Source of the DNA: Alloyangia pacifica | Lineage (GTDB): Bacteria; Pseudomonadota; Alphaproteobacteria; Rhodobacterales; Rhodobacteraceae | NCBI RefSeq assembly: GCF_020524285.1 | Contig: NZ_JAIVKX010000003.1 | Location: forward strand, 124,001-188,000 | Reading direction: 5' to 3' | DNA length: 64,000 nt | Shown here: positions 42,384-54,267 of the stretch, in pieces | Layout: every line of letters starts with the position of its first letter | How positions within the stretch are numbered: position 1 is the stretch's first letter | Position numbers and translations under genes: made by a program | Notes under the pieces: generated by a model | What the model was told of the DNA's origin: nothing | Database searches by the model: none | What the model saw: the letters and a program-made list of their open reading frames with translations, nothing else

Positions 42384-42480
42384 CGAGAGGTTGGCGCGGG
42401 CAGGCGCCTCGCCAACCCGGTCAGGTCCGGAAGGAAGCAGCCGTAACGAGCCCCGCTTGGGTCGTTGTCCAGCCTCTCAC
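42384..42480 (+). ncRNA. ffs: Signal recognition particle RNA, small bacterial (4.5S) type
   Basis: RNA scaffold of the signal recognition particle, about 97 bases. The ends GAGAGGTTGG and CCAGCCTCTC pair as the basal helix, and the apical hairpin has the invariant Ffh-binding sequence GGTCAGGTCCGGAAGGAAGC followed by AGCCGTAACGA. The size and the single-helix form without an Alu domain are normal for alphaproteobacteria. Exact ends are estimated from the closing helix. Confidence 0.97.
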
Positions 42481-42551
42481 CTACCCCCACATTCAGGGTC
42501 TTATGCTGCCACCGCGCTTGCGGTGGCCATTGGCGCCGTGCGTCCGACCGC

Positions 42552-42612: not shown

Positions 42613-43275
42613 TCAGAACAGCCCGGCTTCCTTGGCAAGAAGCGCGGCCTGCGTGCGGTTCGAGGCGCCGATCTTGCGGTAGAGCGTCTTCACGTGCAGC
42701 TTCACGGTCGGCTCGCGGATGTCGAGATCGCGGGCGATTTCCTTGTTCGACTTGCCCTGGGTCAGCCCCTCGAGCACCTCCAGCTCGCGCGGCGACAGAC
42801 GCTCGGCCATCGGGTGGCTCGGCGCGGCCTCTTCCTGGCGCATGAAGTCCAGCGGGGCGTATTGCTCGCCCATCGCCATGAACCGCACGGCGTTGACCAG
42901 CGACTTCGCCGAGAGGGTCTTGGGCAGGAAGCCCGCGGCGCCGGCCTCGAGCACCTGCTCGGCAACGTCGCGGCTGGCGGTGCCGGAGATGATCGCGACT
43001 CGGTGCGACCCCTCCAGCGCGCGCATCTTGTTGAAGCCTTCGAGCGCGTTCATGCCCGGCATCGAGTAGTCGAGAAGCACGAGATCGAACTGCTCGCCCG
43101 CCTTCACCAGCGCCTCGGCCTCGGAATAGCTTGCCACGCAGACCGTCTCGAAAGTACCTTCACCTTCAAGGAAAATCTGCAGCGTATCGCGGAGGAGATC
43201 GTGGTCGTCGGCGATCAAAACGCGAAGCACATTGGCCGATCTGGTTACCACATGCGCCGCCTGCTGTGCCATCAT
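42613..43275 (-). CDS. LuxR/FixJ-type response regulator
   Basis: 220-residue two-component regulator. The receiver domain (about 16-135) has RVLIADDHDLLRDTL with the acidic pocket, phospho-acceptor Asp69 in LVLLDYSMPGMNALEG, a Ser/Thr in AIISGTASRD, and the lysine in AAGFLPKTLSAKSL. The C-terminal GerE helix-turn-helix reads RLSPRELEVLEGLTQGKSNK then EIARDLDIREPTVKLHVKTL. Start at the first of two adjacent ATGs, with GGGAG 8 bases upstream. A hybrid kinase gene lies 925 bases away on the other strand and is the likely partner. It ends in a strong terminator. Confidence 0.95.
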   Translation of the reverse strand: MMAQQAAHVVTRSANVLRVLIADDHDLLRDTLQIFLEGEGTFETVCVASYSEAEALVKAGEQFDLVLLDYSMPGMNALEGFNKMRALEGSHRVAIISGTASRDVAEQVLEAGAAGFLPKTLSAKSLVNAVRFMAMGEQYAPLDFMRQEEAAPSHPMAERLSPRELEVLEGLTQGKSNKEIARDLDIREPTVKLHVKTLYRKIGASNRTQAALLAKEAGLF

Positions 43276-43397
43276 GGTCCGTCTCCCTGCAACCTCTCGG
43301 CGAATCGCCGTTCATCTTTCTCTAAACAAATAGCAAAACTAACGGCTGATTGCGGTTAAATTATGGACAAAGGGGGGCGTATTGCTCCGCCCTGTGA

Positions 43398-43414
43398 CAT
43401 GACGACGGGTCATG
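43398..43414. promoter_or_regulatory. Palindrome CATGAC-GACGG-GTCATG
   Basis: Perfect 6-base arms with a 5-base centre, 123 bases upstream of the response regulator gene. Possible operator; no known consensus recognised. Confidence 0.35.
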
Positions 43415-43548
43415 CTTCTCCCGCGCCTCACGCCCCGATCCGCCAAATCCCGCCGACGGCACGATTTCCTCGCTCCGGTCCCGCGACGGCAAGGCTGCGC
43501 GCCCGAAAGAATGCGCCTATTGCCTCGCCACCGAAGGAGCCGCGGATG

Positions 43549-43570
43549 CCCCTACCCGGACGGATAGGGG
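43549..43570. promoter_or_regulatory. Palindrome CCTACCC-GGAC-GGATAGG upstream of sensor operon
   Basis: Arms extend to CCCCTACCC / GGATAGGGG with one mismatch. It lies 76-97 bases before the start codon of the exported protein gene. The same pattern, CCTATCC-N4-GGATAGG, recurs before the glycosyltransferase genes at 46960-46977, which marks it as a candidate operator, possibly of the adjacent LuxR-type regulator. Confidence 0.55.
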
Positions 43571-43645
43571 CCCCTCCCATTGCCCCGATACCGCTTTTGT
43601 CGCGTATGTGACAGTATCCGACCACCCACCAAGGAGTCGCAAATC

Positions 43646-44173
43646 ATGTTCGGTCTTCCGCCCCTGCGCGCCCTCGTTTTCCTTGCGGCCTGTGCCGTGC
43701 CGATGGCCTCCGTAGCGGTCACGGCGGATGAGGCATTGCCCGCGCCCGCGGAGGAGCCCCTGCTCGTGGTGAGCGGCGCGATCACCAACACCAACGTCGG
43801 TGACACGGCGACCTTCGACTTCGACATGCTCGAAGCGCTGGACACCCGCACTTTCACCACCAAGACCATCTGGACCGATGGCGACCAGGTTTTCACCGGC
43901 GTACAGCTCAGTGACCTGATGGAGCTCGTCGGGGCCGAAGGGACCGAGATCAAGGCGACCGCGATCAACGACTACGCGGTGACCATCCCCAGCGAGGACT
44001 GGGTCGATGGCGGGCCGATCGTCGCGTTCCTCAACCACGGCGAGAAGATGCCGGTGCGCAACAAGGGCCCGCTGTGGATCGTCTACCCCTTCGATCAGAA
44101 GCCCGAGTACCAGACCGAGCAGATTTATTCCCGCGCGATCTGGCAGTTGGACCGCATCATCGTTCTTGACTAG
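43646..44173 (+). CDS. Exported molybdopterin-oxidoreductase-fold protein lacking cysteine
   Basis: 175 residues with a signal peptide (RALVFLAACAVPMASVAVTA). The mature part matches the small oxidoreductase molybdopterin-binding (sulfite-oxidase) fold: LLVVSGAITNTNVGDTATFD, FDMLEALDTRTFTTKTIWTD, GVQLSDLMELVGAEG, IPSEDWVDGGPIVAFLNHGE and KGPLWIVYPFDQ. Catalytic members hold molybdenum through a cysteine, but the only cysteine here is in the signal peptide, so it is unlikely to be a redox enzyme of that kind. AAGGAG lies 9 bases before the ATG. A hybrid sensor kinase gene follows after 26 bases; a sensory role in the periplasm is inferred. Confidence 0.82.
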   Translation: MFGLPPLRALVFLAACAVPMASVAVTADEALPAPAEEPLLVVSGAITNTNVGDTATFDFDMLEALDTRTFTTKTIWTDGDQVFTGVQLSDLMELVGAEGTEIKATAINDYAVTIPSEDWVDGGPIVAFLNHGEKMPVRNKGPLWIVYPFDQKPEYQTEQIYSRAIWQLDRIIVLD

Positions 44174-44199
44174 GACGCGCGGTTCGGGCCCATGGAGGC

Positions 44200-46830
44200 A
44201 TGGTGAACTTGAATCTGCCCGACGAGACTTCAACCCATAGCCGAACCACCCTGGTGCAGACCGGGGGCGCGGCCTCCGCGCTTCTGCTCTGCGTGGGCCT
44301 CGTTGTCTGGCTCGGCTGGCTGGTCCTGAGAGAGATCGACGACTTCTCCGTCGCGAATTCCGACAACCTGCAGTGGAGCCTCGCCCAGGCCGACGTGGAA
44401 TTCCTGCAGTTCCGTCTGGCGATGAAGGAAGCCCAGGACAATCCCGACGCGATGGAGGATGTCCGCCGCCGCTTCGACATCTTCTACAGCCGCATGGTGA
44501 CCATGAGCAGCGGGCGGGTGTTTCACGCCCTGCGCGAGTCGGTGCAGTCGTCCGCGCCGCGCATGCGGGTGCTCGATTTCCTGGAAAACACCGTTCCGCT
44601 GATCGACGGGCCAGACGACGTCTTTCTCGCCGAGTTGCCCGCGCTGCTCGAAGAGTCCGAGCAGGTGACCGCGGACGTCCGCGCCTTCTCGCTGGCCGCG
44701 CTCACCGCCTTTGCCGAGGTTTCGGATTCCCGGCGCGAGGGCATCACGGAGCTGATGATCTACATCGCCGCCGTGCTTCTGGCCCTGTTCATCGGCCTGA
44801 CCCTTCTGGCCTACGCCATGTTCCGCCTGTTCCGGCTCGCGCAGAAGCGCGCCGACGCGCTGCAGTTTGCCAGCACGCGGATGAAGACCATCGTGCAGAC
44901 CTCGCCGAACGCCATCGTGGTGACCGACGAGGTGGGCGTGGTGCGCGAGTTCAACACCGCGGCAGAGGCGCTCTTCGGCTATACCCGCGCCGAGGCGGTG
45001 GGGCGGCTTGCGCTGGAGCTGATGGTTCCGGCGGACACGCTGGCCCGGCACCAGCTCGGTGCGCTGGCCTTCCTCGACGAGCACCGCCGGCCGCGGCTCG
45101 ACGAGCAGCATTTCGAGATCACGCTGCAGACCCGCGACCAGCATCTCTTCCCTGCCGAGATCTCGGCCGACCGCGCCGAGGCCGACAACCCGCTCTACGT
45201 GTTCTACATTCGCGACATCTCGAACTGGAAGGAAGCCGAGGAACAGCTCACCGACGCCCGCGACCGCGCGCTTGCGGGCGAACGCACCAAGTCCGAGTTC
45301 CTGGCGGTGATGAGCCACGAGATGCGCACCCCGCTGAACGGGCTGCTCGGCGCCATGCAGCTGATGCGCGATCACAGCCTGACCACGCGCCAGAGCGACT
45401 TGCTCGACCGCATGCAGAGCTCGGGCCGGCTGCTGCTTGAACTGGTGAACGACGTGCTCGATCTCGCCAAGTTCGAGGCCGGAAAGATGCGGGCCGAAGA
45501 AGCCCCCTTCTCGATCAACCGCCTGCTCAACGGGCTGATGGAGACGGCCCAGCCGCTGGCCCAGACCTATGGCAACGAGCTGAACTGGCGCTGGTGCGGC
45601 CCCGAGGGCGACGGCGCCATCGGCGACGCACGGCGCCTGCGGCAGGTGCTGCTGAACCTCGTCGGCAATGCGCTGAAGTTCACCCGCGACGGCACCGTCG
45701 AGGTCGAGGTCGAATATCTCGACGCCGCGCAGACCGAGATCGAGTTCCGCGTCATCGACAATGGCATCGGCATCGCCGAGAAGGACCTCGCCCGGATCTT
45801 CCAGGATTTCGAGACGCTGGATTCCTCCTACGCCCGCGAAGCCGGCGGCACCGGGCTCGGGCTCGGCATCGCGCGGCGCTTCATGCGCCTCATGGGCGGA
45901 GAGATCGGCGCCGAGAGCGAACCCGGCGAAGGCAGCCTGTTCTGGATCCGCGTGCCGCTGACCCCGTCCGAGGATGTCGGCGCGGTGCCGGAAGAGCCCC
46001 GCGACTGCCCCGACAAGCCGCAGCGTCCGCTTGACGTGCTGCTGGTCGAGGACAATGAGATCAACCGCTTCATCGTGCGCGAGATGCTCGAGGGCGAGGG
46101 CCACAAGGTCACCATCGCCGAGAACGGGCAGGCCGGCGTGGACATGGCCGAGCTGCACCGCTTCGACGTGATCCTGATGGACATCTCGATGCCGGTCATG
46201 GATGGCACCACCGCCTCGGGGCACATCCGCCGCGGCACCGGCGCCTGCGCCGAGGTGCCGATCATCGCCCTTACCGCCCATGCCCTGCCCGAGGAGCGCG
46301 AACGCTTCCGCAAGGTCGGGATGACCGCCTGCCTGACCAAGCCGATCGAGCGCCCGCTGCTGCTGCGCACGCTGGCGCAGGTGACGTCCGGCGAGATTCC
46401 CGCGCTCCCCGACACCCCCGCCCCGGCGGCGCCCTCCGCCCCGCCCGTCCTAACCGTGGTGGAGCCGTCGGCAGAGGCACCGGCCGATCCGGCCCACGGC
46501 CTGCTCGACGAGGAACGCCTGCGCGCCTTCCTCTCCGAGGTGCCGCGCGCCGCGGCCAACAAGCTGCTGGAACGGTTCTTCGCCGAGATGGACCGCAATA
46601 TCGCCGCGCTCGCCGAAACCGCGCCCGACGATCCCGACCTCGCCCCCGTGGCGCATCAATGCGCCGGCTCCTGCGGCCCGTTCGGCGCCGAGGCGCTGCG
46701 CCGCGCCCTGGGACGTATCGAGACGCAGGTGAAGCGCGGCGAGCAGCCCGACAAGGCCGAGCTCGAGGCGCTGGCCGATCTCTGGCAGCAGAGCCGCAGC
46801 GCTCTGGAAGCCCGACTCGAAGCAGCCTGA
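44200..46830 (+). CDS. Hybrid sensor histidine kinase (PAS-HisKA-HATPase-REC-Hpt)
   Basis: 876-residue inner-membrane kinase. Domains: helix at about 25-46 (LLLCVGLVVWLGWLVL), periplasmic helical region of about 140 residues, second helix at about 188-210, PAS domain about 225-340 (QTSPNAIVVTDEVGVVREFN), HisKA with His373 in SHEMRTPLNGLLGAMQ, HATPase with NLVGNALKF and GTGLGLGIA, receiver with Asp661 in LMDISMPVMDG, and a C-terminal phosphotransfer domain with His819 in VAHQCAGSCGPFGAEA. This is a complete internal phosphorelay whose natural output would be a separate response regulator such as the one at 42613-43275. The ATG at 44200 versus GTG at 44203 is undecided. A strong terminator follows. 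Confidence 0.95.
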   Translation: MVNLNLPDETSTHSRTTLVQTGGAASALLLCVGLVVWLGWLVLREIDDFSVANSDNLQWSLAQADVEFLQFRLAMKEAQDNPDAMEDVRRRFDIFYSRMVTMSSGRVFHALRESVQSSAPRMRVLDFLENTVPLIDGPDDVFLAELPALLEESEQVTADVRAFSLAALTAFAEVSDSRREGITELMIYIAAVLLALFIGLTLLAYAMFRLFRLAQKRADALQFASTRMKTIVQTSPNAIVVTDEVGVVREFNTAAEALFGYTRAEAVGRLALELMVPADTLARHQLGALAFLDEHRRPRLDEQHFEITLQTRDQHLFPAEISADRAEADNPLYVFYIRDISNWKEAEEQLTDARDRALAGERTKSEFLAVMSHEMRTPLNGLLGAMQLMRDHSLTTRQSDLLDRMQSSGRLLLELVNDVLDLAKFEAGKMRAEEAPFSINRLLNGLMETAQPLAQTYGNELNWRWCGPEGDGAIGDARRLRQVLLNLVGNALKFTRDGTVEVEVEYLDAAQTEIEFRVIDNGIGIAEKDLARIFQDFETLDSSYAREAGGTGLGLGIARRFMRLMGGEIGAESEPGEGSLFWIRVPLTPSEDVGAVPEEPRDCPDKPQRPLDVLLVEDNEINRFIVREMLEGEGHKVTIAENGQAGVDMAELHRFDVILMDISMPVMDGTTASGHIRRGTGACAEVPIIALTAHALPEERERFRKVGMTACLTKPIERPLLLRTLAQVTSGEIPALPDTPAPAAPSAPPVLTVVEPSAEAPADPAHGLLDEERLRAFLSEVPRAAANKLLERFFAEMDRNIAALAETAPDDPDLAPVAHQCAGSCGPFGAEALRRALGRIETQVKRGEQPDKAELEALADLWQQSRSALEARLEAA

Positions 46831-46848
46831 CCCTCGCGCGCGACCCCG

Positions 46849-46890
46849 AAGGGCCGAGTCGGCAGACACCCGACTCGGCCCTTTGCTTTG
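46849..46890 (+). terminator. Rho-independent terminator after the hybrid kinase gene
   Basis: Perfect 12-base stem GGGCCGAGTCGG / CCGACTCGGCCC (46851-46862, 46870-46881) with a 7-base loop, followed by TTTGCTTTG. It closes the sensor operon. Confidence 0.92.
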
Positions 46891-46959: not shown

Positions 46960-46977
46960 CCTATCCGAGTGGATAGG
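46960..46977. promoter_or_regulatory. Palindrome CCTATCC-GAGT-GGATAGG upstream of glycosyltransferase operon
   Basis: Perfect 7-base arms with a 4-base centre, 148 bases before the first glycosyltransferase start codon and downstream of the kinase terminator. It matches the palindrome at 43549-43570 in sequence and spacing. The repetition in two neighbouring leaders supports an operator. Confidence 0.6.
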
Positions 46978-47124: not shown

Positions 47125-48039
47125 ATGCCCCGCTTTTCCGTCGTCATTCCCTGCTACAACGCCGAGGCGACCATCGCCGAGACCATCGAGAGCCTGCTCG
47201 CGCAGACCGAACACGACTGGGAAGCGCTGATCATCGACGACGGCTCCAGCGACGACACTCGCCTGATCGCCGCCTCCATGGCCGGGATCGACATGCGCTT
47301 CCGCCTGATGAAGAGCAGCGGCGTCGGCCCGAGCGCGGCGCGCAACATGGCGCTGGCGGAAGCCGACGGCGAGATCATCGCCTTCCTCGATGCCGATGAC
47401 ACCTGGCACCCGGAAAAGCTCGAGAGGCTCGACGCCTTCTTCGAGGACGAGAGCGCCGATGCCTGCTTCGGCCGGGTCACGCTGTCGAACGGCCGCACCA
47501 TCGGCACGGTCACCGGCCCCTACGAGGGCACGCTGACGCTGGAGGCGCTTTTCGCCGAGAACCCGGTCTTCACCATGTCCAACATGGCGATCCGTCTCGA
47601 GAGCTTCCTCGCCAGCGGCGGTTTCAACACCGAGATCACCCAGAACGCCGACCTCGAATGGCTGGTCCGCCTGATCGGCGACGGCGCCCGCGTGGTCGGC
47701 ATCGACGCGGCGCTGGTCACCTACCGCACCTCGGACACCGGGCTGTCCTCGGACCTCGAGGGCATGAAAGCGGGTCGTGGCCAGGCGCTGCTGAGCGCGG
47801 CGCGCTACGGCTTCCGCAGCACCGCCCGCAACGAGGCCGCGCACCTGCGCCAGCTCGCCGCCCGCGCCCTGCGCGTCGGCGCCCCCGGCCGGCAGGCCCT
47901 GCGCCTCGGCCTGTCGGGCTGCACCACCAGCCTCAGTGGCTGGTTCTCCAATCCGTTCCACGGCGCGCGCGTGCTGACCGGCGCGCTGCTCGCCGCGGTG
48001 CTGCCCCGTCCGTTGCGCGACGCGCTCTTTTCGCGCTGA
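47125..48039 (+). CDS. Glycosyltransferase family 2, first of three
   Basis: 304-residue GT-A-fold enzyme. MPRFSVVIPCYNAEATIAET and LIIDDGSSDDT form the nucleotide-sugar site; GPSAARNMALAEADGEIIAF leads to the D-x-D metal motif LDADDTWHPEKL; TQNADLEWLVRL probably includes the catalytic Asp. The N-terminal half is catalytic; a C-terminal helical tail ends near the membrane-like LTGALLAAVLPRPLRDALF. AAGGA is 9 bases before the ATG. It is followed by a second family 2 gene after 19 bases; the product is probably an exopolysaccharide or glycoconjugate. Confidence 0.92.
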   Translation: MPRFSVVIPCYNAEATIAETIESLLAQTEHDWEALIIDDGSSDDTRLIAASMAGIDMRFRLMKSSGVGPSAARNMALAEADGEIIAFLDADDTWHPEKLERLDAFFEDESADACFGRVTLSNGRTIGTVTGPYEGTLTLEALFAENPVFTMSNMAIRLESFLASGGFNTEITQNADLEWLVRLIGDGARVVGIDAALVTYRTSDTGLSSDLEGMKAGRGQALLSAARYGFRSTARNEAAHLRQLAARALRVGAPGRQALRLGLSGCTTSLSGWFSNPFHGARVLTGALLAAVLPRPLRDALFSR

Positions 48040-48058: not shown

Positions 48059-49039
48059 ATGCCACGCGCCTCGATCATCGTCACGGCCAGCAATGCCGCA
48101 GACCGGCTGCAGGACACCCTGCGCAGCCTCTGCGCGCAGAGCTTTCCGGACTTCGAGATCCTCGTGGTCGACGATGGCTCGACGGACGACAGCGCCGAGC
48201 TGGCAGAAGCGTTCGGCGATCTGCGCATCCGCGTGCTCCGTCAGCGCACCCGCGGTACCGCCGGCGCGCGCAATACCGGCATCGCCGCCGCGCGCGGCTG
48301 CTTTGTCGGCTTCTGCGACGCCGGCGATTGCTGGGCGCCGACCAAGCTCGCAGAGCACGTGGCGCAGTTCCAGGCCTCGCCGGCCGTCGGCCTGAGCTAC
48401 TCCGGCTCCGAGGCGCTCGGCCCGAACGGGCGGCGCGCGGCGCTGTGGAAGACCCCGCGCAAGCGCGGCATCGGGGCGGCAGAGATCTTCAAGCGCAACC
48501 CCGTCGGCCCGGCCTCTGCCGCGATGATCCGCCGCGCCGCGCTCGACAGCGTCGCCTTCCGCCCGCCGCATGAAAGCGAGCGCGACTGGTGGTTCGACGA
48601 GACCTTCCGGCAGGTCGAGACGCTCGAGCTCTGGCTGCGTTTTGCCCTGGTCAGCGACTGGGAGATCGTGGGCATCCCCTCCCGGCTCTGCAGCTGCTGC
48701 AGCGCCGAGACCACCGTCCCGCCCGTCTCCGTGGGCAAGCAGATCGCTGCCTGGGAGCGCATGGTGACCAAGCTGTCGGCGCAGGACCGGCACTTCTTTG
48801 GCCGCCACGCCGCCGCCGCACGCGCCTATCACCTGCGCCACCTGGCGCGCTGCGCCATTCTCGCCGGAGAGGCTCCGCGCGCCGCCCAGCTGCTGCGCGC
48901 CGCGCTCGCCTCCTCGCTGCGCCCGCTCGCCGAAGAGCCCCGGAAGACGCTGGCGATCTGCGCCTCCGGCCTCGTCCTCTACCTGTCCCGCTTGCCGCTC
49001 TTCGCCCGCCTCCCGGGCGCGCGCGGCAGGTCGGCCTGA
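48059..49039 (+). CDS. Glycosyltransferase family 2, second of three
   Basis: 326 residues. It has ASIIVTASNAADRLQDTLRS, ILVVDDGSTDDSAELAE and GTAGARNTGIAAARGCFVGF. The metal-binding D-x-D position reads CDAGDCWAPTKL, so the third residue is Gly in place of Asp; the HESERDWWFDETFRQVETLE region may supply other acidic residues. Activity may be altered or use a different metal arrangement. AAGGAG lies 9 bases before the ATG. Co-directional with its neighbours. Confidence 0.88.
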   Translation: MPRASIIVTASNAADRLQDTLRSLCAQSFPDFEILVVDDGSTDDSAELAEAFGDLRIRVLRQRTRGTAGARNTGIAAARGCFVGFCDAGDCWAPTKLAEHVAQFQASPAVGLSYSGSEALGPNGRRAALWKTPRKRGIGAAEIFKRNPVGPASAAMIRRAALDSVAFRPPHESERDWWFDETFRQVETLELWLRFALVSDWEIVGIPSRLCSCCSAETTVPPVSVGKQIAAWERMVTKLSAQDRHFFGRHAAAARAYHLRHLARCAILAGEAPRAAQLLRAALASSLRPLAEEPRKTLAICASGLVLYLSRLPLFARLPGARGRSA

Positions 49040-49065: not shown

Positions 49066-50067
49066 ATGCTACGCATAGCCCATCTTCACGACGACCGGAC
49101 CGCGGGCGACCTGTCCCGCTATCTGGCATTTCTGGGCCGCGATCCCGCGCTGGCCGCCACCGCCGAGCACCGCGCCGTTCCGGTGTCGCGCCTGGTCGCC
49201 GGCGCTGCGGCGATCGACGCCAACGTGATCGTCTCGCACCTGCCGCTGACCTGGCAGAGCCTGCCCGGCCTGATGATGCTGCGCGCGCGCCATCCGCAGG
49301 CGAAGCTCGTGCATGTCGAACACCTGCATTGCGAGGGCTCCTCTGTGATCAGCCGCAACCGCGCCCGCCGGCGCGCCATGCTGCGGTCCGGCTATGCTCT
49401 GTTCAACCACGTGGTCGCGCTCGGCACGGCGCAGGCGCGCTGGATGCGCCGCCACGCGCTGGTCGCCCCGGCGCAGCTTTCGGTGATCCCGCCCTTCGCC
49501 GAGCTCGACTCCTTTGCCGCCCTGCCCGGCCCGCGGGGCCAGGTCAGGCGCATCGGCGCGATCGGGCGCCTGCACCGCCAGAGCGGCTTCGACCTGCTGA
49601 TCGAGGCCTTCAGCGTCGTGTCCAATTCCGAGGCGCGGCTCGACATCTTCGGGGACGGGCCGCAGCGCGCCGAGCTGCGCGCGCTCGCGCGTCACGACCT
49701 GCGCATCCGGGTGCATGGCAACACCACCCGGCTCTCGGCCCTGCGCCAGTCGGATGCCATCGCCATGCCGTCGCGCTGGCAACCCTCGCCGCTGGCCGCC
49801 CGCGAGGCGCAGGCGGCGGGCCGCCTGCTGCTGCATTCCGGGCGTGACGGCCTGTCGGACCTGCAGGGGCCGGGCGTGCTGACCGTGGCCGACCTTTCGG
49901 TCGCCGCATGGAGCCGGGCGCTAAGCGATGTGCTGGCCGAGACCGCCCCGGCCCCGCGCGAGCCCGCCGACACCGCGCGCGAGCTGACCGTGCAGGGCTG
50001 GCAGGGGCTGCTTGACCGCCTCACCTGCCGCCAGAAGGCCGGGCGCGGCGCGCTGGCCGTGATCTGA
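49066..50067 (+). CDS. Glycosyltransferase family 4-like (GT-B fold)
   Basis: 333 residues, MLRIAHLHDDRTAGDLSRYL at the start and the GT-B donor-site half from about residue 160: RRIGAIGRLHRQSGFDLLIE, RLDIFGDGPQRAELRAL, VHGNTTRLSALRQSDAIAMP and SPLAAREAQAAGR, where the glutamate of the E-x7-E motif would lie. The ATG at 49066 is preferred to one at 49051 since GGAG is 9 bases before it. It ends the three-gene glycosyltransferase run and converges on the LysR gene with an 8-base gap. Confidence 0.88.
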   Translation: MLRIAHLHDDRTAGDLSRYLAFLGRDPALAATAEHRAVPVSRLVAGAAAIDANVIVSHLPLTWQSLPGLMMLRARHPQAKLVHVEHLHCEGSSVISRNRARRRAMLRSGYALFNHVVALGTAQARWMRRHALVAPAQLSVIPPFAELDSFAALPGPRGQVRRIGAIGRLHRQSGFDLLIEAFSVVSNSEARLDIFGDGPQRAELRALARHDLRIRVHGNTTRLSALRQSDAIAMPSRWQPSPLAAREAQAAGRLLLHSGRDGLSDLQGPGVLTVADLSVAAWSRALSDVLAETAPAPREPADTARELTVQGWQGLLDRLTCRQKAGRGALAVI

Positions 50068-51090: not shown

Positions 51091-54000
51091 TCAGAGCAGG
51101 AAATCGTCCTCGGTCAGCTCTTCGTCGGACTGCACCAGCAGGGTCTGCGCCGCGCCGTCGATGTCGAAGCTGAGGCTGGCGGTGCCGTCCTCCTGGCTCA
51201 GCGCCGCCATCAGCGCCTCGCCGTCCGCCCATTGCCCGAGCTGCGTCAGGTCGATGCGGTCGGCCCCGGAGAAATCGGTGATGGAGACGGTGCCCGCCGC
51301 CGCGCTGACGCCGAAGGTATCGTCGCCCGCGCCGCCGGTCAGCGTATCGTCGCCGCCGCCGCCCCAGAGCGTGTCATCCCCGTCGCCACCTTCGAGCAGC
51401 TCGTCCTCGTCGGTGCCGGTCAGCTCGAGATGCGGCGCGCCGTCCTCGTCCAGCCACCACAGGCTGCCGTCCTGCGAGACGCTCACGTCGCTGATCTCGC
51501 CCTGCAGCGCGGTGTCGCCCGATCCGCCGAGCAGGTTGGTGAGCCGCGCGCTGCCGTTCGGCACCACGCCCTCGCCCTCGGCGATCTGCTCCCCGTCCTT
51601 CTCGACGTACATGAAGCCGGTCTCGTCGATGCCCACGGTCCAGCTCGCCGTCTCGCCCTCGAACAGCGCATCCTCGGCCACGATGTAGTGGGTGTAGCCG
51701 CCCTGGCTGACCGAGAAGACCACGGCATCGCTCGGCCCGAGCTGCCCAAAGGCGATCCGATCCTCCTCCGCCCCGCCGAACTCGAAGACCTGCTGGCCGC
51801 GCGCCTCGGTGAGATCGTCAAAGCGCAGCTCCGCAGAGAACTCGAAGGCGCCGCCGATCTGCGGCAGGCTGTCATCGGTCAGCTCGGGCTCGGCGGGATC
51901 GCTGGTGTCTTCCGCGTCATCCCCCGCGCCGTCCTCGGGCGCCGCGGGATCGAGGACGGTGGAGCCTGCCTCCGGCGTCCAGACCTGATCCCCCTGCACC
52001 AGGCTGACGTCGCTCATCTCGCCCTGCAGCGTGGCCGAGCCCGAGCCGCCGAGCAGGTTCGCCAGCCTCTCGCTGTCCGAAGGTACCAGCCCGTCCCCCT
52101 CGGCGATCTGCACCCCGTCCTTCTCGATGTACATTAAGCCGGTCTCATCGACGCCGACGGTCCAGGTCGCGGTCTCGCCCTCGGTGATCGCGTCCTCGGC
52201 AACGATCAGCGCGGTGACCCCGTCCTGCACGATCTCGAAGAGCACCGCGTTGCTGGGACCGAGCTGTCCGAAGGTGATCCGGTCCTCGCTCTCCCCGCCG
52301 AACTCGAAGACCCGCTGGTCGCGCGCGCCGGAGATGTCGTCGAAGCGCAGCGTCGCCTCGAATTCGAAGGCCCCGTCGATCTGCGGGAGCTCATCCGCGC
52401 CGTCAGGGTCGGGGCCCGGGTCCGTGGTCTCGCCAGTGTCCGCCGGATCGGTCGAGTCAGACGAGTCGGTCGGATCAGACGGGTCGCTGGGCTCGGAAGG
52501 ATCGGAGGTTCCGCCAGTCCCGGTACCGTCATCCACGCCCGTGCCCGCATCTCCGCTCTCGTCCGAGAGCCAGGTGCCGCTCGCCTGGGTGATCGATACG
52601 TCCGAGATGTCGCCGACCAATGCCGTCTCGCCGGCGCCACCGAGCAGGTTGCTCAGCCGCTCGCTGTCCGCAGGCACCACGCCGTCGCCCTCGGCGACCT
52701 GCACCCCGTCCTTCTCGACGAACATGAAACCGGTTTCGTCGACTCCGACGGTCCAGGTGGCGGTCTCGCCCTCGACAAGGGCATCCTCGGCAACGATGAG
52801 CCAGCTCGCCCCGTCCTGCCCGATCTCGAAGAGCACCGCGGTGCTGGGGCCGAGCTGGCCGAAGGTCAGACGGTCCTCGTCCGCGCCGCCGAATTCAAAC
52901 ACCTTCTGACCCTGCGCCGCCGACAGATCATCGAAGCGGATCGTCGCCTCGAACGCAAAGGCCCCGTCGATCTGCGGCAGCTCGCCCGTGGTCTCGACCG
53001 GGTCGGCCGGGTCTTCAGGATCGACGGGATCAACCGGATCCACGGGGTCGGTCGGGACATCGGGATCGCTCTCCTCGCTCGCGGCCGGAATGCCCATGGC
53101 CTGCAGCTGCGCTGCCGAGGACACCTCGGAGGCCAGCACGCCGACCAGCGTCAGCGCCACGCCGCCGGGGAAGCTCAGCACCGCATCGCCGGTGCCGTCG
53201 CCGACCGTGTCGCTCACCGTGACATCAACCACGTCCACCGGGTTGCCCTCGGCATCGGTCAGCCCCGTGACGTCCAGCAGGTCGTTGCCCGCGTAGGTCC
53301 CGTCACCAAGCTCGGTCGGCGCCACGAAGCCCTGCACCGCGTCGAGCCCGCCGCCGTCCGACAGCGCCAGCGTGTCGGCCCCGGCGCCGAGGATGATGTG
53401 CTCGACCTCGTCGTAGACCAGCGTGCTGGTGCCATCGCTGACGCTGCCGATCTCGGGGTTGATGTCGCCCAGGTCGATGCGCAGTCCGTCGGTGACCAGC
53501 GACAGGTCGAGCGTGTCGCCCAGCACCTCGTCGACGCCCTCGGCGTCCACCGTGTCATTGCCGAAATCGTTCTCGATGTGGAAGGTGTCGTCGCCCCAGC
53601 CGCCCCAATAGCTGTCGTCGCCGGTGCCGCCCCAGAGCGCGTCGTTGCCATAGGAGCCGCGCATCCAGTCGTTGCCCGCGCCGCCGTGGATCGTGTCGCT
53701 GCCCTCGTTGCCCTCGAGCGTGTCGTCGCCGTCGCCGCCGCTGACGTAATCGTCGCCCTCCTGGCCGTAGAGCGAGTCGCTGCCCGCGCCGCCCTCCAGC
53801 GAGTCGCCCCCCTCGTTGCCCGAGAGGGAATCGTCGCCCGCGCCGCCGATCACCGTGTCGGCGCCGGTGCCCGCGTGCACCGTGTCGCCGCCGTCGCCGC
53901 CGTAGATCAGGTCGTCCCCGGCATAGCCGAGAAGGCTGTCGTCCCCCGCCCCGCCCGAGAGCGTGTCACTGCCGTCGCCGCCGCCCAGCGTGTCCGCGCC

Positions 54001-54267
54001 CGCGCCGCCGGTGAGCAGGGTGAAATAGCTCCAGTCGGTGCCCGCGCCGAGCTGCGCATCGAAGACCGCCGGCGCCGTGGCGTCACCGATCTGGAAGCTG
54101 CCGCCGTCGTAGGTGAGGAAGAGCACGAGGTTGGCCTGGTCGAACTCGACGTCGACGCCGTCGGGCAGCCCCGAGAGATCGAGCGTGTGCCCGGCGGAGC
54201 TTTCGGAGATCCCCGCCCAGAAAGCCGGGTCGTTCCAATTCTCCTGCGTCACCGCGTAGACCGTCAT
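51091..54267 (-). CDS. RTX-type secreted calcium-binding protein with three LamG-like repeats
   Basis: Very acidic 1058-residue protein without Sec signal, expected to leave by a type I system. Domains: N-terminal module MTVYAVTQENWNDPAFWAGI of about 85 residues common in Rhodobacteraceae RTX proteins; calcium-binding nonapeptide repeats (G-G-x-G-x-D) at about 87-240; a linker region; three ~135-residue jelly-roll repeats at about 428-566, 625-762 and 800-935, each with FDDL, VFEFGG, TFGQLGPS, EGETATWTVGVDETG and KDGVQIAEG-type blocks; a second short RTX block at about 945-985; and an acidic C-terminus. Linkers are Asp/Pro/Ser repeats (DPVDPVDPVDPEDPADPV). Likely an adhesin or matrix protein. 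No T1SS genes are nearby. Confidence 0.92.
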   Translation of the reverse strand: MTVYAVTQENWNDPAFWAGISESSAGHTLDLSGLPDGVDVEFDQANLVLFLTYDGGSFQIGDATAPAVFDAQLGAGTDWSYFTLLTGGAGADTLGGGDGSDTLSGGAGDDSLLGYAGDDLIYGGDGGDTVHAGTGADTVIGGAGDDSLSGNEGGDSLEGGAGSDSLYGQEGDDYVSGGDGDDTLEGNEGSDTIHGGAGNDWMRGSYGNDALWGGTGDDSYWGGWGDDTFHIENDFGNDTVDAEGVDEVLGDTLDLSLVTDGLRIDLGDINPEIGSVSDGTSTLVYDEVEHIILGAGADTLALSDGGGLDAVQGFVAPTELGDGTYAGNDLLDVTGLTDAEGNPVDVVDVTVSDTVGDGTGDAVLSFPGGVALTLVGVLASEVSSAAQLQAMGIPAASEESDPDVPTDPVDPVDPVDPEDPADPVETTGELPQIDGAFAFEATIRFDDLSAAQGQKVFEFGGADEDRLTFGQLGPSTAVLFEIGQDGASWLIVAEDALVEGETATWTVGVDETGFMFVEKDGVQVAEGDGVVPADSERLSNLLGGAGETALVGDISDVSITQASGTWLSDESGDAGTGVDDGTGTGGTSDPSEPSDPSDPTDSSDSTDPADTGETTDPGPDPDGADELPQIDGAFEFEATLRFDDISGARDQRVFEFGGESEDRITFGQLGPSNAVLFEIVQDGVTALIVAEDAITEGETATWTVGVDETGLMYIEKDGVQIAEGDGLVPSDSERLANLLGGSGSATLQGEMSDVSLVQGDQVWTPEAGSTVLDPAAPEDGAGDDAEDTSDPAEPELTDDSLPQIGGAFEFSAELRFDDLTEARGQQVFEFGGAEEDRIAFGQLGPSDAVVFSVSQGGYTHYIVAEDALFEGETASWTVGIDETGFMYVEKDGEQIAEGEGVVPNGSARLTNLLGGSGDTALQGEISDVSVSQDGSLWWLDEDGAPHLELTGTDEDELLEGGDGDDTLWGGGGDDTLTGGAGDDTFGVSAAAGTVSITDFSGADRIDLTQLGQWADGEALMAALSQEDGTASLSFDIDGAAQTLLVQSDEELTEDDFLL

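Follow-up and report, generated by a model that had tools for sequence, protein, structure and literature searches.

The locus and its features

The 64,000-nucleotide stretch analysed here (the window) belongs to contig NZ_JAIVKX010000003.1 of Alloyangia pacifica (Rhodobacteraceae; positions 124,001 to 188,000, forward strand), and the system in question consists of three of its genes, encoding an exported protein (PruR), a hybrid histidine kinase and a response regulator, together with a palindrome that precedes both pruR and a neighbouring glycosyltransferase operon. The gene trio had been recognised, from the letters alone, in a first-pass annotation of this DNA, and its positions were borne out (Table 1); to this annotation the present analysis adds the palindromes, the hairpin and the glycosyltransferase operon, as well as the PAS domain and the WX7E motif of the kinase. 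The regulator gene is divergent from pruR, and the kinase gene lies downstream of it, 26 bases separating the stop codon of the exported protein from the kinase ATG. Past a hairpin behind the kinase begins an operon of two family 2 and one family 4 glycosyltransferases (GT2-GT2-GT4). This genome contains a second complete trio, at about 466.6-470.4 kb of G000:C3, and since the arrangement also recurs across the family, chance neighbourhood can be ruled out. Taken together, the evidence points to a pterin-sensing pair of the type called PruR-DTB (DcpA-TorS-BaeS), which in these bacteria has probably been extended by a dedicated response regulator controlling polysaccharide genes.

Table 1. Features of the pruR locus and of the adjoining glycosyltransferase operon (positions within the window).
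Feature	Position	Strand	Basis
NarL/LuxR-type response regulator, 220 aa, Asp69, GerE helix-turn-helix; proposed end point of the relay	42613..43275	-	Pfam; conservation next to pruR, mostly in divergent orientation
Palindrome CCTACCCGGACGGATAGG, operator-like, located 77 bp upstream of the pruR start	43551..43568	.	Conserved block in 6 aligned upstream regions; 1 mismatch to CCTATCC-N4-GGATAGG
pruR, exported protein of the pterin-binding family, sulfite oxidase (SUOX) fold without Mo-ligating Cys	43646..44173	+	Structure matches; residues N108/Y110/W166
DTB-type hybrid histidine kinase, 876 aa	44200..46830	+	Periplasmic helical domain with WX7E, PAS, HisKA (H373), HATPase, REC (D661), Hpt (H819)
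Hairpin resembling a terminator, behind the kinase gene (16 pairs, 7-nt loop)	46847..46885	+	-31.6 kcal/mol (ViennaRNA, 55 bases folded)
Palindrome CCTATCCGAGTGGATAGG, operator-like and perfect; the glycosyltransferase operon starts 147 bp further on	46960..46977	.	Exact site
Family 2 glycosyltransferase, encoded first in the operon proposed as target	47125..48039	+	Pfam Glycos_transf_2, 1.1e-35 (scanned from 47074); start codon picked by eye
Family 2 glycosyltransferase	48059..49039	+	Pfam, 4.2e-32
Group 1/family 4 glycosyltransferase	49069..50067	+	Pfam Glyco_trans_1_4, 7.2e-17

The hairpin was not picked up by a simple terminator scan, and a scan for sigma-70 promoters, which is uninformative here, returned none.

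The exported protein

In a search against solved structures, the exported protein matched PDB entries deposited as 'Pterin Binding Protein' with E-values of 4.4e-39 (7kos/7kou) and 2.3e-38 (7rkb), followed by weaker matches to 7kp2 and 7kom. Its AlphaFold2 model (pLDDT 88.5) superimposes on these structures with TMt values of 0.93-0.96 (7rkb, 7kos and 7kou), 0.96 being reached with Klebsiella PruR containing neopterin and 0.93-0.95 with Agrobacterium PruR, and the identity to 7kos in the structure alignment is 48%. The Asn, Tyr and Trp of the pterin site of Agrobacterium PruR are N102, Y104 and W160 (PMC13259868, a review); these align to N108, Y110 and W166, a mapping taken from the structure-search alignment together with the equal Tyr-Trp spacing, and the three residues are invariant in 26/26 aligned proteins. 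As judged from sequence and modelled structure, the exported protein is a PruR, a member of a solved pterin-binding family, for which binding of a pterin is predicted; the notion of an undescribed orphan protein was discarded in view of this match. An N-terminal secretion signal was read by eye, and the only cysteine, residue 16, falls within it, so that the mature protein has none, as the first-pass annotation had observed. Its further proposal, that this protein has become a periplasmic ligand- or cofactor-sensing partner of the kinase, is supported by the PruR match: most likely, the protein binds a ligand as a partner of the kinase and has no enzymatic role.

A third PruR-like protein encoded in the same genome (G000:C7:173619-174029; L036 5602-6168 (-), L104) is 36% identical, carries Asp at the position of the pterin-site Asn and has no adjoining kinase or cyclase match. 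Among the proteins of this genome, the one most similar to E. coli FolM (G000:C8:45158-45892; 27%, E 5e-12) contains the sequence TGAGKRLG, which fits TGX3RXG, a motif of pteridine reductases (PMC13259868), as well as YX3K, and on these motifs a PruA/FolM-type enzyme is plausible for this candidate.

The hybrid kinase

The Pfam scan of the kinase detected PAS (227-322), HisKA, HATPase, REC and Hpt domains, and the three residues predicted to carry phosphate, H373, D661 and H819, proved to be invariant in 22/22 aligned kinases. The periplasmic part contains W59-X7-E67, that is, the WX7E motif of DcpA-like periplasmic domains (PMC13259868); the Trp is found in 24/24 aligned kinases, and the residue closing the motif is Glu in 22 of them and Asp in two. 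The model of this domain is all-helical (pLDDT 87.5). Foldseek gave weak matches to QseE with QseG (PDB 9m08), Adeh_2942 and NarQ (best E 0.022, none below 0.001), and the ten matches of a PDB profile search (best E 0.086) were not convincing; the fold matches being weak, a four-helix sensor is put forward as a suggestion. The best NCBIfam match of the whole kinase is TIGR02956, TorS (E 2.3e-110), with 370.2 bits against an equivalog cut-off of 676.5, and BaeS is not among the 25 NCBIfam matches listed.

The PruR-DTB systems described in print combine PruR with a DcpA-like periplasmic domain borne by a kinase of the TorS/BaeS type, such as Ruegeria pomeroyi WP_011045932.1 (PMC13259868). By its sequence, the combination of PruR and kinase found here is a PruR-DTB pair as named in that review, so that the earlier statement that no system of this build had been described does not hold for the pair. 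Since the Pfam scan of the kinase revealed no GGDEF or EAL domain, an output through cyclic di-GMP (c-di-GMP) was rejected.

The response regulator as a probable third member

The divergent gene encodes, as had been predicted, a receiver domain followed by a GerE domain (Pfam Response_reg 4.1e-21, GerE 5.8e-21), and its D69 is invariant in 18/18 aligned regulators. Its association with PruR was surveyed in 100 genomes of the Rhodobacteraceae, each at least 90% complete. PruR was found at E 1e-10 or better in 58 of them, at 76 places, all of which were sorted by partner: the partner is a kinase bearing REC and Hpt at 45 places, a kinase in which no Hpt was detected at 20, a partial kinase at one and a diguanylate cyclase at one (a match directly downstream, obtained in a one-query search), and the remainder consists of eight partnerless genes and one broken PruR frame. 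The regulator adjoins 40/45 Hpt-bearing kinases (38 divergent, two upstream on the same strand) versus 1/20 of the kinases without a detected Hpt (Fisher 6e-11, uncorrected for kinship), and this single kinase, of 867 aa, may have an Hpt that escaped the profile. The regulator adjoins the partial kinase as well, which brings the loci referred to below as trios to 42. At the level of genomes, PruR occurs in 46/48 of those that encode the regulator (matched at E 9.4e-54 or better) versus 12/52 of the others, again without correction for kinship. The trio is thus conserved within the family, and this conservation makes a phosphorelay to the LuxR-type regulator the likeliest output of the kinase, as had been supposed.

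Some kinases with the PruR-docking domain have the regulator nearby and no adjacent pruR: L125 (G089), L126 (G095), L128 (G029) and L129 (G079). Taking into account that G095 and G029 carry partnerless PruR genes elsewhere, these two arrangements suggest split systems. In seven relatives (L013, L015, L016, L018, L021, L023 and L030), a large membrane-protein-like gene lies near the trio, the L030 copy encoding 1033 aa without a Pfam match.

A palindrome before pruR and polysaccharide genes

Alignment of six regions upstream of pruR (window, L005-L008 and L010) exposed the conserved block CCTAYCC-N4-GGRTAGG. Within two mismatches of CCTATCC-N4-GGATAGG there are two sites in the window, compared with 0.09 expected from shuffles, and 21 in the genome, compared with seven for reversed controls. 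Exact matches to CTATMC-N4-GKATAG amount to two in this 5.7-Mb genome, the one before the glycosyltransferase operon being among them, and to zero for reversed controls. Scored at 11/14 or better, the first form of the motif was found upstream of pruR at 22/42 trios, 2/5 Hpt loci without an adjacent regulator, 0/19 Hpt-less kinase loci and 1/9 other loci (arms-swapped control, 5/42 trios and 1/19 Hpt-less loci). The wider form, CTATMC-N4-GKATAG, scored at 11/12 or better, was found at 28/42, 1/5, 0/19 (regulator-less and Hpt-less) and 1/9; the controls gave 6/42 with swapped arms, which is a poor control as it retains the half-sites, and 0/42 both when reversed and in a third version. A partnerless pruR in G082 (L050) also has the palindrome upstream (11/12), the regulator of this genome being encoded on a different contig, within a polysaccharide cluster (L114).

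Polysaccharide genes lie within about 6.5 kb of 11/42 trios versus 0/33 other PruR loci (p 0.0017; the broken-frame locus was left out). Counted as such were the fusion of a WecG/TagA glycosyltransferase with a sugar transferase, wzz-like and wzy-like genes, the wzx flippase and homologues of the glycosyltransferases of the window; wzz-like and wzy-like are names given by position and look, Pfam having assigned no family to the copies scanned. The 11 loci include the window itself, seven share the same cluster, and two (L061 and L067) have partial WecG matches only. A wzz-like gene was found in 11/100 genomes, ten of them with the regulator, and in nine of these ten the matched stretch is preceded, at a distance of about 0.1-0.2 kb, by a site with at most one mismatch to the wider form; no such site precedes the gene in G005, with the regulator, or in G049, without it, and reversed controls gave 0/11. 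The polysaccharide cluster of G006 does not share a contig with the trios of that genome, yet it contains two sites, a perfect one between wzz- and wecG-like genes and another before wzx-GT2-GT2 (genes named by look).

A model for pterin-dependent control of polysaccharide genes

It is proposed that a reduced pterin present in the periplasm would bind PruR, which would dock onto the helical periplasmic domain of the kinase, where WX7E is located, and set its balance between kinase and phosphatase activity. Phosphate would then travel from H373 through D661 and H819 to D69 of the divergent NarL-type regulator, whose phosphorylated dimer would bind CTATMC-N4-GKATAG and control, positively or negatively, its own sensor operon and the polysaccharide and glycosyltransferase operons. 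If so, externalised pterins would govern polysaccharide genes by transcription in Rhodobacteraceae, alongside the route that runs through c-di-GMP in Agrobacterium. We lean slightly towards a broader version, in which the Hpt-bearing branch of PruR-DTB in this family would be a dedicated relay from pterin to polysaccharide, with a co-evolving NarL-type regulator and an operator code of its own (CTATCC for an EPT recognition helix and, in most cases, CTATAC for EVT/EAT), controlling even unlinked exopolysaccharide clusters. The periplasmic pterin sensor would in that case be wired twice to the sessile lifestyle, via c-di-GMP and via transcription.

Several observations weigh against the proposed model. 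No polysaccharide gene is found within 6.5 kb of 31/42 trios, and the genome of the window lacks the wzz-like gene; of the 19 further sites in this genome within two mismatches, the seven viewed do not precede any obvious polysaccharide gene. A clear palindrome before pruR is missing at 14/42 trios, including the second trio of the window's genome, and the count of 28/42 was made on the very loci that had been viewed when the motif was widened to its M/K-degenerate form. Moreover, relatives of the regulator stand divergently beside Hpt hybrid kinases without a docking-domain match (L116 in G036, L124 in G012), where other inputs may feed the same regulator output.

This last point touches on an explanation that we hold to be unlikely, namely that the main recipient of the signal from the PruR-DTB kinase is a different regulator and that the LuxR-type gene is a neighbour with an input of its own. 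Besides the regulators beside other kinases, it could draw on those in polysaccharide loci without PruR (polysaccharide genes occur at 3/20 fetched regulator places without adjacent PruR) and on three of the five Hpt kinases without an adjoining regulator, the other two being at contig ends. The linkage of 40/45 versus 1/20 speaks against it, and so does the agreement of distances between kinase core and regulator. Distance agreement was scored on 41 trios with a kinase core, among which five genomes with two trios permit 32 within-genome swaps. Native pairing was the best of all 32, by small margins, for PruR and the periplasmic domain (r 0.632), PruR and the regulator (0.583), the periplasmic domain and the regulator (0.668) and the kinase core and the regulator (0.733 versus 0.732), and was not outstanding for PruR and the kinase core (11/32 swaps as good) or for the two kinase parts (12/32).

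Equally improbable is that the palindrome is the site of a different transcription factor controlling the same operons. Its absence from the 14 trios mentioned would be compatible with this; against it, site numbers follow the presence of the regulator, with 79 sites of at most one mismatch versus 13 reversed controls in the 48 genomes that have it, part of the 79 being the trio sites themselves, and ten versus 13 in the other 52. The half-site also follows the recognition helix of the regulator: on the pruR-side arm, on which the association was scored (p 9e-4, uncorrected), the fifth base is C in 11/11 loci with an EPT helix, and with EVT/EAT it is A in 11/17, C in five and T in one.

The likelihood is lower still that the signal detected by the exported protein is not a free pterin but, for example, molybdopterin, a metal or a redox state. 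Sulfite oxidases do share its fold, and the ligand of PruR in vivo is unsettled even in Agrobacterium (PMC13259868); nevertheless, the residues of the pterin site are retained, the cysteine is absent, and the closest structures are those of PruR, one of them with neopterin, sulfite oxidases ranking far below in the fold comparison of the model. That it could belong to the sulfite oxidase family as a catalytic molybdoenzyme, as a weak Pfam Oxidored_molyb match might suggest, was rejected as barely conceivable, since this match (22.2 bits) misses the cut-off of 24 by 1.8 bits, the mature protein lacks a Mo-ligating cysteine, and 0/30 aligned sequences have any cysteine from residue 36 (numbering of the protein in the window) onward.

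Comparison with known systems

The pterin-sensing pair of the window resembles PruR-DTB systems in its two-gene operon of pruR and a kinase with a DcpA-like WX7E periplasmic domain, PAS, HisKA, HATPase and REC. It differs in the C-terminal Hpt, which the figure legend of the published example does not include, and in having a conserved NarL-type regulator and a palindrome common to pruR and polysaccharide genes; in the accessible part of the review, the term 'response regulator' occurs 0 times and no regulator is mentioned (PMC13259868). PruR, the WX7E periplasmic domain and the link to polysaccharides are shared with PruA-PruR-DcpA of Agrobacterium tumefaciens, the output of which is c-di-GMP turnover (PMC13259868), unlike the phosphorelay to a DNA-binding regulator that is inferred here.

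The presence of a periplasmic partner protein beside a sensor kinase is a likeness to TorT-TorS-TorR and QseG-QseE, from which the system departs in the fold of the partner, the ligand and the type of regulator. In TorT-TorS-TorR a periplasmic partner likewise acts with a kinase, and TorS is also a REC-Hpt hybrid. The regulator, made of REC and GerE, is built like NarL/NarP, although it scores 116 bits with the NarL NCBIfam model, whose cut-off is 250. NarL sites, like the palindrome, consist of 7-base inverted half-sites, and the palindrome differs from them in its 7-4-7 spacing and in the half-site itself.

Searches of the literature on the system and on the half-sites returned, among the matches listed, one work with PruR-DcpA/DTB as its subject, the review PMC13259868, which in its accessible part names PruR-DTB kinases without giving their output; the output proposed here comprises a regulator, a DNA site and target operons. 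As far as searched, the PruR-DTB pair is already known, and the three-gene relay with its operator and polysaccharide targets is not. The regulator as third member, the shared palindrome and the polysaccharide link are new within that literature. An earlier mention of the regulator in the primary paper on PruR-DTB, reportedly that of Greenwich et al. of 2024 in PNAS, is possible.

Neighbouring genes

Proteins that by eye resemble secreted proteins with RTX/calcium-binding repeats recur near the regulator or the palindrome, both in the window (51091-54267 (-)) and at L065, L071, L077, L119, L121 and L166. Similar epimerase-like genes stand beside the palindrome or the regulator at L171 (4022-5434, G022) and L122 (4547-5767, G091), and we take them to resemble UDP-sulfoquinovose synthase. 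Just past the regulator gene of the window, a gene for the small signal recognition particle (SRP) RNA of the bacterial type is present at 42385-42481 (+) (Rfam RF00169, 56.6 bits).

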